Assembly: GCA_019247335.1 (NCBI GenBank)
Contig: JAFAPB010000046.1
Span: 1 to 33,594, forward strand
Direction: 5' to 3'
Length of the DNA stretch: 33,594 nucleotides
Origin: Candidatus Kaiserbacteria bacterium
Lineage (GTDB): Bacteria; Patescibacteriota; Minisyncoccia; Phycocordibacterales; UBA2100
Part shown: positions 19,281 to 31,164 of the stretch, piece by piece
How the letters are laid out: each line of letters begins with the position of its first letter
Position numbering within the stretch: position 1 is the stretch's first letter
Translations under genes and position numbers: made by a program
Notes under the pieces: generated by a model
Seen by the model: only the letters and a program-made list of their open reading frames with translations
The model's database searches: none
Told to the model about the DNA's origin: nothing

Positions 19281-20158
19281 AGCGGCCTTGCTCCCGAGCG
19301 AAGGAATTCCTCATATTTCATTTCGCTCTTGCCCTCGGGCTTTACGGTATCGATCACAAGCGCGCCATTTTCTATATGCGCGTCGAGAATGCCGACGCGG
19401 ATCTGCTTGCCGCCTCTTTCGAAATAGGCGAACGTGCCGGGCCAGCCCTCGAGCGCGCGGATCTTGCGTAGATTCTCGTGCGCGTCGGCATTGAGATCAA
19501 GCAGGCCATCGCTCTTTGTGAACTTGAGCGAATACGTCGCGATGTCGTGATTCTGTTCATGCGCTTCGATCTCACCTCGAGTCCAGTGCGGCAAGATTTC
19601 TGCGAGCAATTTGCCTCCCGCGCGTGCCAGCGTCTCTTCGAGCGCGGCCGCACGCGGCGGCCAGGGTGCGACATCGACCCGCTTTTGTGCGATCACCGGC
19701 CCGTGATCCATTTTCTCGTCGACGAGCATGATGGTGACACCGGTTACTTTTTCATCATTCAATATCGCGGAGCGAATGGGGGAGGCGCCGCGCAAGCGGG
19801 GCAAAAGTGAAGGATGCATATTCAAGGTGCCGCGCTCAGGCAGATCCAAAAGCGCTTTGTGCAGTATCTGACCGTAATCAGCGACGACGAAAAGTTTCGG
19901 CGCACGCGCTCCCATTTCCGCGATGAATGCATCATCAAGCTTTTCCGGCTTCAATATTTCGAGCCGGCGCGACTCGGCCCACTGCGCGATAAGCGACTGT
20001 CCGATCTCCATGCCGCGCCCTTTCGCTTTGTCGGGCGCCGTCACGACGAGCGCGGGCAGATGCCCAGCTGCTTCGAGCTCGAGCGCGACAAAAAGCGCGA
20101 TCCTGCCCGTGCCGAAGAAAACGAACGGAATATCACTCGTCTTCAGGTTCTTCGTCAT
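19277..20158 (-). CDS. fmt: Methionyl-tRNA formyltransferase
   Basis: FFGTGRIALFVALEL, LNMHPSLLPRLRGASPI, ITIMLVDEKMDHGPV-like. Confidence 0.97.
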   Translation of the reverse strand: MTKNLKTSDIPFVFFGTGRIALFVALELEAAGHLPALVVTAPDKAKGRGMEIGQSLIAQWAESRRLEILKPEKLDDAFIAEMGARAPKLFVVADYGQILHKALLDLPERGTLNMHPSLLPRLRGASPIRSAILNDEKVTGVTIMLVDEKMDHGPVIAQKRVDVAPWPPRAAALEETLARAGGKLLAEILPHWTRGEIEAHEQNHDIATYSLKFTKSDGLLDLNADAHENLRKIRALEGWPGTFAYFERGGKQIRVGILDAHIENGALVIDTVKPEGKSEMKYEEFLRSGARPL

Positions 20159-20687
20159 ACAATTCTTTTGCCTTATCGATATAGAGAATACCGTCGAGGT
20201 GATCCATCTCGTGCTGGAAAATGTGAGCGAGAAAGCCGGAGGCGCCCCGCGTGAATTCTTCGCCGCGTTCGTTGTATGCGCGCAGCGTCATTTTTTCCGC
20301 TCGCGGGACGATGCCCCATTTGCCGCGTACCGAGAGGCATCCTTCATGCTTGTCCTTTTTCCCGCGCGAGGTCTTGATGATGACGGGATTTATATACACC
20401 TGGTCAGGAAGCGCCGTGGCAGGTTCGTCGGCTTTTGCCGGCTCGTCCTTGGCGTTGCGCGTGCCGCGCGCGAGCGCCTTGCCGGAGACGATGAAAAGGC
20501 GGAGCGGCTCGCCGAGTTGCGAAGCCGCGAGCGCGACACCGTAGACCTCATTTGAAAGCAGATCTTTCATTTCTTCGATCAAATGCTGTATGCGTGTGCT
20601 CCCGATATCGTCGATCGGTATCTCGCGCGCCGTCTCCCGCAGCGCCGGGTTTTGTTCGTAGGGGATAATGCTCCGCATTGCGTTCAA
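20133..20687 (-). CDS. def: Peptide deformylase
   Basis: GVALAASQLG, EGCLSVRG, FQHEMDHLDGILY. Confidence 0.97.
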   Translation of the reverse strand: MNAMRSIIPYEQNPALRETAREIPIDDIGSTRIQHLIEEMKDLLSNEVYGVALAASQLGEPLRLFIVSGKALARGTRNAKDEPAKADEPATALPDQVYINPVIIKTSRGKKDKHEGCLSVRGKWGIVPRAEKMTLRAYNERGEEFTRGASGFLAHIFQHEMDHLDGILYIDKAKELYDEEPEDE

Positions 20688-20714
20688 CTATAGAGGCGCT
20701 GCGTATAAAAGTGA

Positions 20715-20930
20715 AGCGCCCAATCCGCAAGCAGACTGGGCGTTCAGAGCGGTCGGTAAACTACCGACTGAGGCGGAAGCCTCTACGGCCACGTGACTAA
20801 CGTCGTCGCTCTAAGAAAGTGGCCGGCCGGGTGGCGGCGTGTCATTGAGGAGGCCACTCACACGCTGCCCCCGGACCGGCCGAACCCCACGGGCCTCAGG
20901 AGATGCGGCGGACCTGAGCATTCCGTAGGG
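20715..20930 (+). ncRNA. Candidate structured RNA, four helical domains, family unrecognised
   Basis: By-eye helices: 20717-22/20737-42; junction closed by 20746-51/20807-12 with arms 20752-58/20762-68, 20770-74/20779-83 (GGAA loop) and 20791-94/20800-03; long hairpin 20821-42/20860-81; 20886-92/20923-30 enclosing 20895-900/20913-18. Confidence 0.6.
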
Positions 20931-20973
20931 AACGAAACTTAATGCAATTTAGCAAAAAACAGCGTTTGATACA

Positions 20974-21267
20974 ATGCTTCGCATGAAGCACATCAGTGCG
21001 CATATAAAAAGGAAGGCCGCTGCGACTCGCGAGACGGAGCGGGGAGAACTCATGCAGTATTTCTGCGAACAGCTCAATAAGACCCGTGCGCGCGATGGAT
21101 TGCCCAAGATCACCATGGGTCGCATGGGTTTTATGCTCGCCAAAATCCCGACCAAGGACCTCTACTATCTCAAAAAGGTCTGCGACGACTCCGCAAACTT
21201 CTCCAAAAAATTCTGGTGGGAGATCAATCCGAAGAAACACACAGGCGACGGTACGGATAAAAAGTAG
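20974..21267 (+). CDS. Hypothetical protein, about 95 aa
   Basis: Complete ORF, alternative start at 20983. Confidence 0.6.
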   Translation: MLRMKHISAHIKRKAAATRETERGELMQYFCEQLNKTRARDGLPKITMGRMGFMLAKIPTKDLYYLKKVCDDSANFSKKFWWEINPKKHTGDGTDKK

Positions 21268-21520
21268 ACGGCTCGCGCAAGCGCGAGCCGTTCGACATAC
21301 AAATGCAATGCCCCGCATGTGTCGAAGGTGCGAGATCGGATTCAGCTTTTACCGTTTAGCCAACCTGTCCGGTATTCAGGTCGGGATCCGGTGCCGGAGC
21401 CGCATATCGCTGGCTGGTCGGCGGCCTAGTGCGCTCGCGGTGCCCCCATGCATCCCGGGAGGAGACTCGTTGGTCGGAGGATGCATTAGATTACCTACGT
21501 TTATTCTTGCGCCGGCTAAA
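21268..21520 (+). ncRNA. Candidate structured RNA upstream of mreB1
   Basis: Hairpin cggctcgcg-caa-gcgcgagccg; ttcgaca (21291-97)/tgtcgaa (21320-26); closing helix tttagcc (21355-61)/ggctaaa (21514-20) around acctg/caggt, gccgc/gcggc and atgcatcc (21448-55)/ggatgcat (21479-86). Confidence 0.5.
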
Positions 21521-21560: not shown

Positions 21561-22577
21561 ATGGCGTTCTCTTTTGCTCCGAAGCTGGGCATCGATCTCG
21601 GTACGACGACGGTCTTGGTTTTCGTTCCCGGCCACGGCATTGTGCTCAACGAGCCCTCGGTCGTCGCCGTCTCGCAGGGTGAGAATAAGATACTCGCGAT
21701 CGGCAACGATGCTAAGAATATGATCGGCAGAACGCCGGAAGAGATCATCGCGTACCGTCCGATGAAAGACGGCGTCATCGCGGATTATCGCGTAACGGAA
21801 GCGATGCTGCGCTATTACATCAAGAAAGCGCTGGGGCGATGGAATCTCTTCCGCCCCGAAGTCATGGTCTCGGTGCCTGCAGGAGTCACCTCGACCGAGC
21901 GCCGCGCGGTCGTCGAGGCAGCGACGAAAGCAGGCGCGCGCGAAGCATATGTGGTGAAAGAGCCGATCCTCGCGGCGATCGGCGCGGGGATTCCCATTCA
22001 GGAGGCGCGCGGACACATGATCGTCGATATCGGCGGCGGCACGACCGACGTCGCGGTCATCTCGCTCGGCGGCATCGTTGCCTCGACTTCGGTCAAATGC
22101 GCGGGCAACCGCATGGACCGCGCGATCGCTGATTACATCAAAAAGACGGCCAATCTTTCGATCGGTGACAAAATGGCGGAGGATATCAAGATTCATATCG
22201 GCTCGGCAGTGCCTGTAGAGGACGAGCTCATGATGGTCATCAAAGGCCGCGATCATCTGACGGGACTCCCGCGCTCGATCGAGATCGGTACCAACGAGGT
22301 CGTGCGCGCGATCGGCAAGGAATTGCGCACGATGGTCGGCGCGATCAAGGATGTATTGCAAGATACGCCGCCGGAACTGGCCGCAGACATCATCGACAAC
22401 GGCATCACCATGACGGGCGGCTCCTCGCAGCTGCGCAATCTGCCGGAACTCATCTATCGTCGCACAGGGGTGAAGGCGCGAATGGCCAAAGACGCACCGT
22501 ACTGCGTCGCGAAGGGGACCGGTGAAGCGCTGAAGCATTTGGACACCTACAAAAAAGCCATCATTTCGAAGCGATAG
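21561..22577 (+). CDS. mreB: MreB-family actin-like protein (copy 1)
   Basis: LGIDLGTTTVLVFV, VDIGGGTTDVAVISLGG, MTGGSSQLRNLP. Confidence 0.95.
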   Translation: MAFSFAPKLGIDLGTTTVLVFVPGHGIVLNEPSVVAVSQGENKILAIGNDAKNMIGRTPEEIIAYRPMKDGVIADYRVTEAMLRYYIKKALGRWNLFRPEVMVSVPAGVTSTERRAVVEAATKAGAREAYVVKEPILAAIGAGIPIQEARGHMIVDIGGGTTDVAVISLGGIVASTSVKCAGNRMDRAIADYIKKTANLSIGDKMAEDIKIHIGSAVPVEDELMMVIKGRDHLTGLPRSIEIGTNEVVRAIGKELRTMVGAIKDVLQDTPPELAADIIDNGITMTGGSSQLRNLPELIYRRTGVKARMAKDAPYCVAKGTGEALKHLDTYKKAIISKR

Positions 22578-24481: not shown

Positions 24482-25126
24482 ATGGCGCTCTCGGGCAATG
24501 TGCAGCTGATCGCGGGAAATCAGGATGCGGTTCCGGAGGTTTTGGCGTTGCTCGAAGCGGAGGGAATCGAAACGACAGGAAATCCCGATCTCGACGTGCG
24601 CACCTATTCGCAATTTCTCGTGGAAGACGCTCGCTCGCTGTGCGAGCGCGCCTCCGGCAAGGCGCTCGGCACGGGTAGGCGCGTTTTTATCGTCGTCACC
24701 CCGAATCTTACGTATGAGGCGCAGAACACGATGCTGAAGACGCTTGAAGAGGCACCGGGTGATGCGCTTTTTATATTTATCGTGCCGTCACCGTCGCAGC
24801 TTTTGCCGACGGTTCGTTCGCGCGCGCAGATCATGTCGTTCGACGCAGCAGATGAAAGCGCTGCGGCGCGCTCGTTTCTGGCGGCGACTCCGCAGAAACG
24901 CCTCGATCTCCTGAAGCCGTTGCTCGAAAAGGACGAAGCTGACGTGCGTGATATCGGCAATGCGCTCTCGCTCCTTGCGGCGCTCGAGCGTGAGCTTTCT
25001 AAAGACCCGATGAACAACCGCGTCGGCATTGATGCGGTGTATCGCGCCCGCAAATATATCGGAGACAAAGGCTCGCTTCTCAAATCGCTCCTTGAACAAG
25101 TGGCACTTCTTGCCCCGCGTGTATAA
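24482..25126 (+). CDS. holB: DNA polymerase III delta' subunit-like protein, short
   Basis: RRVFIVVTPNLTYEAQNTMLKTLEEAPGDALFIFIVPSPSQLLPTVRSRAQ. Confidence 0.88.
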   Translation: MALSGNVQLIAGNQDAVPEVLALLEAEGIETTGNPDLDVRTYSQFLVEDARSLCERASGKALGTGRRVFIVVTPNLTYEAQNTMLKTLEEAPGDALFIFIVPSPSQLLPTVRSRAQIMSFDAADESAAARSFLAATPQKRLDLLKPLLEKDEADVRDIGNALSLLAALERELSKDPMNNRVGIDAVYRARKYIGDKGSLLKSLLEQVALLAPRV

Positions 25127-30090: not shown

Positions 30091-31164
30091 ATGTTCAAGG
30101 CATTGCGCGAGATGAAAGACAGGGTGCTCGGTTGGTTTTCGAACGACATTGGCATCGATCTTGGGACGGCGAATACGCTTGTTAACGTGAGCGGACGCGG
30201 CGTCGTTATATCGGAGCCATCGATCGTCGCGATGAACACGAAAACGGGGCAGGTGGTCGCAGTCGGGCAGATTGCCAAAGACATGCTCGGACGCACGCCG
30301 CCGCACATCCAGGCCGTTCAACCGGTCATCGACGGCGTGATCTCCGACTTCGAAGTGACTTCGGAGCTGCTTTCATACCTGATCAATAAGGCGCAGGCGG
30401 GGCACACGAAGCTCCTCGGGCCGCGTGTCGCTGTCGGCGTGCCGTCCGGTATCACCTCCGTCGAGGTGCGAGCCGTGCGCGATGCGGCGCGCGCCGCAGG
30501 CGCGCGCGAGGTACATATCATCGAAGAGCCGCTCGCGGCCGCGATCGGTATCGAGCTGCCGGTGCATGAGCCATCAGGAAGCATGGTGATCGACATCGGC
30601 GGCGGTACGACGGATATCGGAATCGTTAGCCTCGGCGGACTCGTCAACGCGCGCAACGTACGCATCGCAGGCGATAAATTCAACGCAGACATCATCAGCC
30701 ACATCAGGAACGAATATAAGCTCTTGATCGGTGAGAAGACCGCCGAGGAAATTAAGATCGCGATCGCGAATGTTGCGCCCGGCCGCGATCGGCTCGAGGC
30801 GATCGTCCGCGGGCGCGATCTCGTTTCGGGACTGCCGCGGGAGATCCTCATCACCGATCAGGACATCCGCAATGCGATCGACCACTCGATCGACGAGCTT
30901 TTGGAATCCATCAAAGAGGTGCTCGAAACGACGCCGCCGGAAATCGTCGCCGACGTGATGCAGCGCGGTATGTATCTCGCCGGGGGCGGGGCGCTGATCC
31001 GCGGCCTCCCGGATTACATCTCGCGCATGATCGGCATTCCGGTCATCGTCGCGACCGACCCTTTGACCGCTGTCGTCCGCGGCACATCGATCGTACTCGG
31101 CGACCTCGACCGATACCGCGAGGCGCTCCTTAAGAGCGATGACGAGCTCATTCCGACCGAATAG
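30091..31164 (+). CDS. mreB: MreB rod-shape determining protein (copy 2)
   Basis: IGIDLGTANTLVNVSGRGVVISEPSIVA; VIDIGGGTTDIGIVSLGG; LAGGGALIRGLPDYI. Confidence 0.98.
   Translation: MFKALREMKDRVLGWFSNDIGIDLGTANTLVNVSGRGVVISEPSIVAMNTKTGQVVAVGQIAKDMLGRTPPHIQAVQPVIDGVISDFEVTSELLSYLINKAQAGHTKLLGPRVAVGVPSGITSVEVRAVRDAARAAGAREVHIIEEPLAAAIGIELPVHEPSGSMVIDIGGGTTDIGIVSLGGLVNARNVRIAGDKFNADIISHIRNEYKLLIGEKTAEEIKIAIANVAPGRDRLEAIVRGRDLVSGLPREILITDQDIRNAIDHSIDELLESIKEVLETTPPEIVADVMQRGMYLAGGGALIRGLPDYISRMIGIPVIVATDPLTAVVRGTSIVLGDLDRYREALLKSDDELIPTE

Follow-up and report, generated by a model that had tools for sequence, protein, structure and literature searches.

Trans-acting small RNAs (sRNAs) usually turn over quickly and are confined to narrow lineages. 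In S. meliloti, the loop of the first stem-loop (SL1) of the sRNA EcpR1 pairs with the dnaA and gcrA mRNAs and represses both, with no need for Hfq (PMC4414408). Published EcpR1 is Rhizobiales-wide (PMC4414408; PMC7143759), and a literature search of partial coverage returned no report of it outside the alphaproteobacteria. A divK-pleD or rpmG gene context is common for EcpR1 and lies outside its Rfam definition, and expression of the RNA is induced by stress. The plasmid pSymB of S. meliloti (CP090106.1) carries a second copy beside rpmG (L030, 591-696; 87.9 bits).

Here we describe a member of the EcpR1 family in an unexpected phylum. It lies in a 33,594-nt stretch of DNA (the window), contig C67 in a draft genome of 861,556 bases and 94.8% completeness. 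Sampled genomes of the host phylum range from about 0.4 to 2.0 Mb across many families, and the genome studied here carries bacterial def, fmt and mreB; on these grounds the host appears to be Patescibacteria-like. Two mreB genes lie within 10 kb of each other in the window (21561-22574 and 30091-31161).

An EcpR1 homologue upstream of def

A covariance-model search of the window matched RF02500 (Atu_C6/EcpR1) at 20933..20816 on the minus strand, scoring 80.5 bits where the gathering threshold is 60, with an E-value of 6.1e-10 and coverage of model positions 1-113 of 113. This is the sole significant covariance-model match in the folded stretch. Because RF02500 is matched over its full length on the minus strand, strand and identity are settled, and the folded stretch is the known family EcpR1 rather than a new RNA family. 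A preliminary description had drawn four consecutive folded domains here and taken them for a functional RNA. All four are present at about the positions where it placed them, and they form a structured RNA gene of the functional type. Positions 20700-20945 fold at -121.5 kcal/mol on the minus strand (z = -5.86) and at -115.9 kcal/mol on the plus strand (z = -5.15), with 0 of 200 dinucleotide shuffles as stable in either case. The same description found no known signature, a statement that is right for RNase P, tmRNA, SRP and 5S RNA and wrong for Rfam as a whole. Its suggestion of a new family gives way for three of the domains, since its nested hairpin is SL1, its hairpin of about 21 bp is SL2 and its first hairpin is a terminator-like stem; the three-arm junction alone is left without a known relative.

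SL1 (20885..20930, minus strand) is supported by the RF02500 alignment, by its fold and by a loop that is invariant in 28 homologues. Its outer stem pairs 20930-20923 with 20892-20885, its inner stem pairs 20918-20913 with 20900-20895, and the loop between them, UCCGCCGCAUCU (20912-20901, minus strand), is identical to the EcpR1 loop in PMC4414408. SL2 (20821..20881, minus strand), identified by the RF02500 alignment, fold and family covariation, is a long stem capped by GAGUGGCCUCCUC (20859-20847), and the UCCUC(G)-type loop motif of EcpR1 is present at this cap as GAGUGGCCUCCUCA. A Rho-independent terminator is an EcpR1 feature of the 3' end; here SL2 has no good U run after it, and a separate terminator-like stem follows after the three-arm junction, a lineage-specific insert predicted from the fold at 20745..20813 (minus strand; z = -3.3, and -4.2 on the plus strand) for which no relatives were found in the genus, the genome itself or plasmids. 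The terminator-like stem and its U-rich tail, CUUCACUUUUA, were recognized from sequence and fold at 20710..20742 on the minus strand; the stem (20742-20717) has 11 pairs, a hairpin energy of -19 kcal/mol and a z-score of -4.75, and the tail is short and interrupted.

At the other end of the gene, a promoter-like site picked out by eye (20946..20974, minus strand) consists of TTGTAT (20974-20969), a spacing of 17 nt and an extended -10 element TGC-TAAATT (20954-20946); it is weak by consensus and falls below the threshold of a promoter scan. Of two related genomes that carry the RNA, termed G065 and G027 below, G065 has a better promoter-like site at the same place (TTGACT ... TATATT), and both have stronger terminators there than the window copy.

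The downstream gene, def, encodes peptide deformylase (20133..20678, minus strand; PF01327, 1.8e-39). Since def has a -10-like box of its own, TATAGT at 20692-20687, right at the gene start, the RNA appears to form its own transcription unit, flanked by two gene starts that point away from each other. The divergent neighbour is a small conserved open reading frame (ORF; 20983..21267, plus strand) that has a match in 46 of the 52 genomes of the genus and none in Pfam, NCBIfam or PHROG. The RNA is thus flanked by def-fmt on one side and by the small ORF and mreB on the other, and the divK-pleD or rpmG context of EcpR1 is absent. Between mreB and the small ORF lies a GC-rich gap (21268-21520) with several hairpins, the folding of which is unexceptional against shuffles (z = -1.6).

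Patchy distribution and probable horizontal origin

Within the genus, RF02500 is found above gathering in two of 52 species, the window genome and G065 (95.2 bits). G027, a third carrier, retains SL1 only (51 bits, below the gathering score of 60). Each of the three copies sits in the gap that separates the small ORF from def, and their orientation with respect to the flanking genes is the same; misassembly is unlikely because three assemblies agree in this synteny. In the remaining species EcpR1 is absent or unrecognisable, and the gap at this site either spans about 34-100 nt or is filled by a different structured stretch, mostly ending in a terminator. No further RF02500 match turned up in the 387 genomes searched across the class, and among 384 genomes sampled from the host phylum no additional one contains the core 16-mer.

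Other RNAs occupy the same site elsewhere in the genus. One species (G073; L159, 1825-1922) has a divergent SL1/SL2-like RNA with CCGCCGCA in its loop and 35.6 bits to RF02500, which could represent either a remote EcpR1 homologue or convergence. Four further species (G008, G034, G070 and G029; L158, L180, L186 and L166) have in common a terminator-ended structured RNA in this gap, the helices of which covary, with two-sided changes in 13 of 36 pairs across four sequences only. It has no Rfam match above gathering and is a candidate new RNA family. Weak matches to suhB/mmgR and ar14 at the locus in other species were below gathering and were taken as chance. The locus may be one at which sRNAs can be exchanged.

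More widely, a genome scan for both EcpR1 loops yielded at least 120 loci, and the matches listed include 108 in Hyphomicrobiales and six more in Alphaproteobacteria. One listed match labelled Anaerolineae (L097) was rejected as a sign of wider spread: it is a 1.6-kb contig that looks alphaproteobacterial and misbinned, on which EcpR1 is accompanied, as judged by eye, by a GGDEF-type end and a gene resembling L33. The preliminary description had proposed to look for homologues and covariation, and both are found, with homologues in the genus at the def-upstream site and covarying helices across 28 diverse EcpR1 homologues including the window copy. In these 28 sequences, two-sided changes that keep pairing occur in 16 of 25 pairs and the 20-nt SL1 core is invariant, an invariance due in part to the scan, which required the core. 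All 123 folds leave the SL1 loop open.

Comparison of individual copies places the window RNA nearest to EcpR1 of Pseudorhodoplanes/Xanthobacteraceae (score 159) and the G065 RNA nearest to those of Bauldia (165) and a Hyphomicrobiales bacterium (158); the mutual score of the window and G065 copies is only 96. On a tree of MreB and Def, the grouping of the three carriers in a single clade is rejected (p-AU = 0.000187). In the RNA tree, G065 groups with one other sequence at 100/82 support, the nearest sequence being L054. On its own this tree is compatible with a shared origin of the window and G065 copies (p-AU = 0.27). What the carriers in the genus have in common with the alphaproteobacteria is confined to the RNA core; the alphaproteobacterial neighbour genes are absent. 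Horizontal transfer into the Patescibacteria-like lineage is well supported, with Hyphomicrobiales as the probable source. Because the carriers do not form one clade and their nearest EcpR1 relatives are of different Hyphomicrobiales types, the gain was probably horizontal and perhaps repeated within the genus.

Viral contigs offer a possible vehicle. One contig (L003; IMGVR_UViG_3300033233_000697) has a full RF02500 match of 78.8 bits at 897-1005 on the plus strand, directly upstream of a portal gene with 47-49% identity to portal genes of Rhizobium phages. The presence of a full EcpR1 on this Rhizobium-phage-related contig suggests that EcpR1 can ride on a phage. A second contig (L005, 5170-5300; IMGVR_UViG_3300045741_000298) contains the exact 20-nt SL1 core with a stem longer by six pairs; its core hairpin is paired, yet it has no RF02500 match. 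The 16-mer matches in viral contigs L009-L028 have neither an extended stem nor SL2 and look like chance.

Proposed function and alternative explanations

We propose that a separate minus-strand sRNA gene upstream of def, made up of SL1, SL2, an extra junction and a terminator-like end, entered this reduced-genome Patescibacteria-like lineage horizontally from Hyphomicrobiales, possibly on more than one occasion. If it works like EcpR1 of S. meliloti, its RNA would be a trans-acting antisense regulator: the open 12-nt loop of SL1 would pair with mRNAs at their ribosome-binding or start regions and block translation without Hfq. Hfq has no match in the host genome, and because of this and the unchanged SL1 loop, Hfq-independent antisense pairing through the loop is likely and the best inference as to its role. 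The family membership, the conserved place in three species, the patchy distribution and the kinship to Hyphomicrobiales copies are demonstrated; to the explanation as a whole, a stand-alone, horizontally gained EcpR1 gene that would act as a trans antisense RNA, we assign a probability of about 0.7.

A loop-pairing search found no mRNA target in the host genome. At start regions the SL1 loop beats unconstrained permutations and also those that keep CAU. A start-specific signal is absent, internal ATGs matching as often or more, which is a weak negative given that start calls were heuristic. The computed pairing with the host dnaA is unremarkable, and a candidate target, the ORF starting at 24482, reached a 2% shuffle fit that is not significant after 13 tests. 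This outcome, like the patchy presence of the RNA and the loss of SL2 in G027, would suit acquired EcpR1 DNA that is drifting without a role. We think such a relic unlikely, as all three species retain an intact SL1 core, the SL2 stem is still paired in the window and G065, and each copy has kept its terminator-like end.

That the RNA precedes def in the same orientation and closes with a terminator-like stem would also fit a cis-acting 5' leader or attenuator, in which the def transcript begins with the RNA and the stem controls read-through. The -10-like box at the def start speaks against this, as do the many members of the genus that keep def with no such RNA upstream, in a gap of the short kind described above, and the EcpR1 genes that adjoin pleD and rpmG elsewhere; we regard a def leader as quite improbable. 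The plus-strand, multi-domain new RNA of the preliminary description, for which it had cited two G-U pairs, draws on the good folding of that strand and on the slightly better fold of the junction there. The G-U pairs are not decisive, stable hairpins as a rule fold well on either strand, and it is on the minus strand that two of the four domains match a curated family above gathering. We reject a new plus-strand family on the strand of that match and of the U-rich tail, with which the orientation in relatives agrees, and regard this proposal as hardly credible. More specific, and to our minds very unlikely, is a scenario in which an epibiotic Patescibacterium took over the cell-cycle sRNA from the alphaproteobacterium that hosts it, perhaps on several occasions and at one exchangeable site, and would use it to silence the dnaA or gcrA of that host or as a decoy.

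To find a rhizobial replication regulator at the same locus in a few dispersed species of a tiny-genome genus from another phylum, as well as on a phage contig, would amount to a clear example of sRNA spread across phyla. Its presence hints at the DNA-exchange partners of these uncultured cells, possibly their hosts, and the locus offers a testable system for the role of an sRNA after transfer.

Comparison with known EcpR1 RNAs

Both the window RNA and that of the phage-related contig match RF02500 in full and have both loops; the phage-contig RNA differs in adjoining a portal gene, and its SL2 is not especially close to that of the window. With EcpR1 of S. meliloti (SmelC291) and other Hyphomicrobiales, the window RNA shares SL1 with the invariant UCCGCCGCAUCU loop, SL2 with its CCUCCUC segment, the overall length and the full covariance-model match. 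Unlike them, it resides in what appears to be another phylum, lies by def rather than pleD or rpmG, and has two additions beyond SL2, a three-arm junction and a distinct terminator-like stem.
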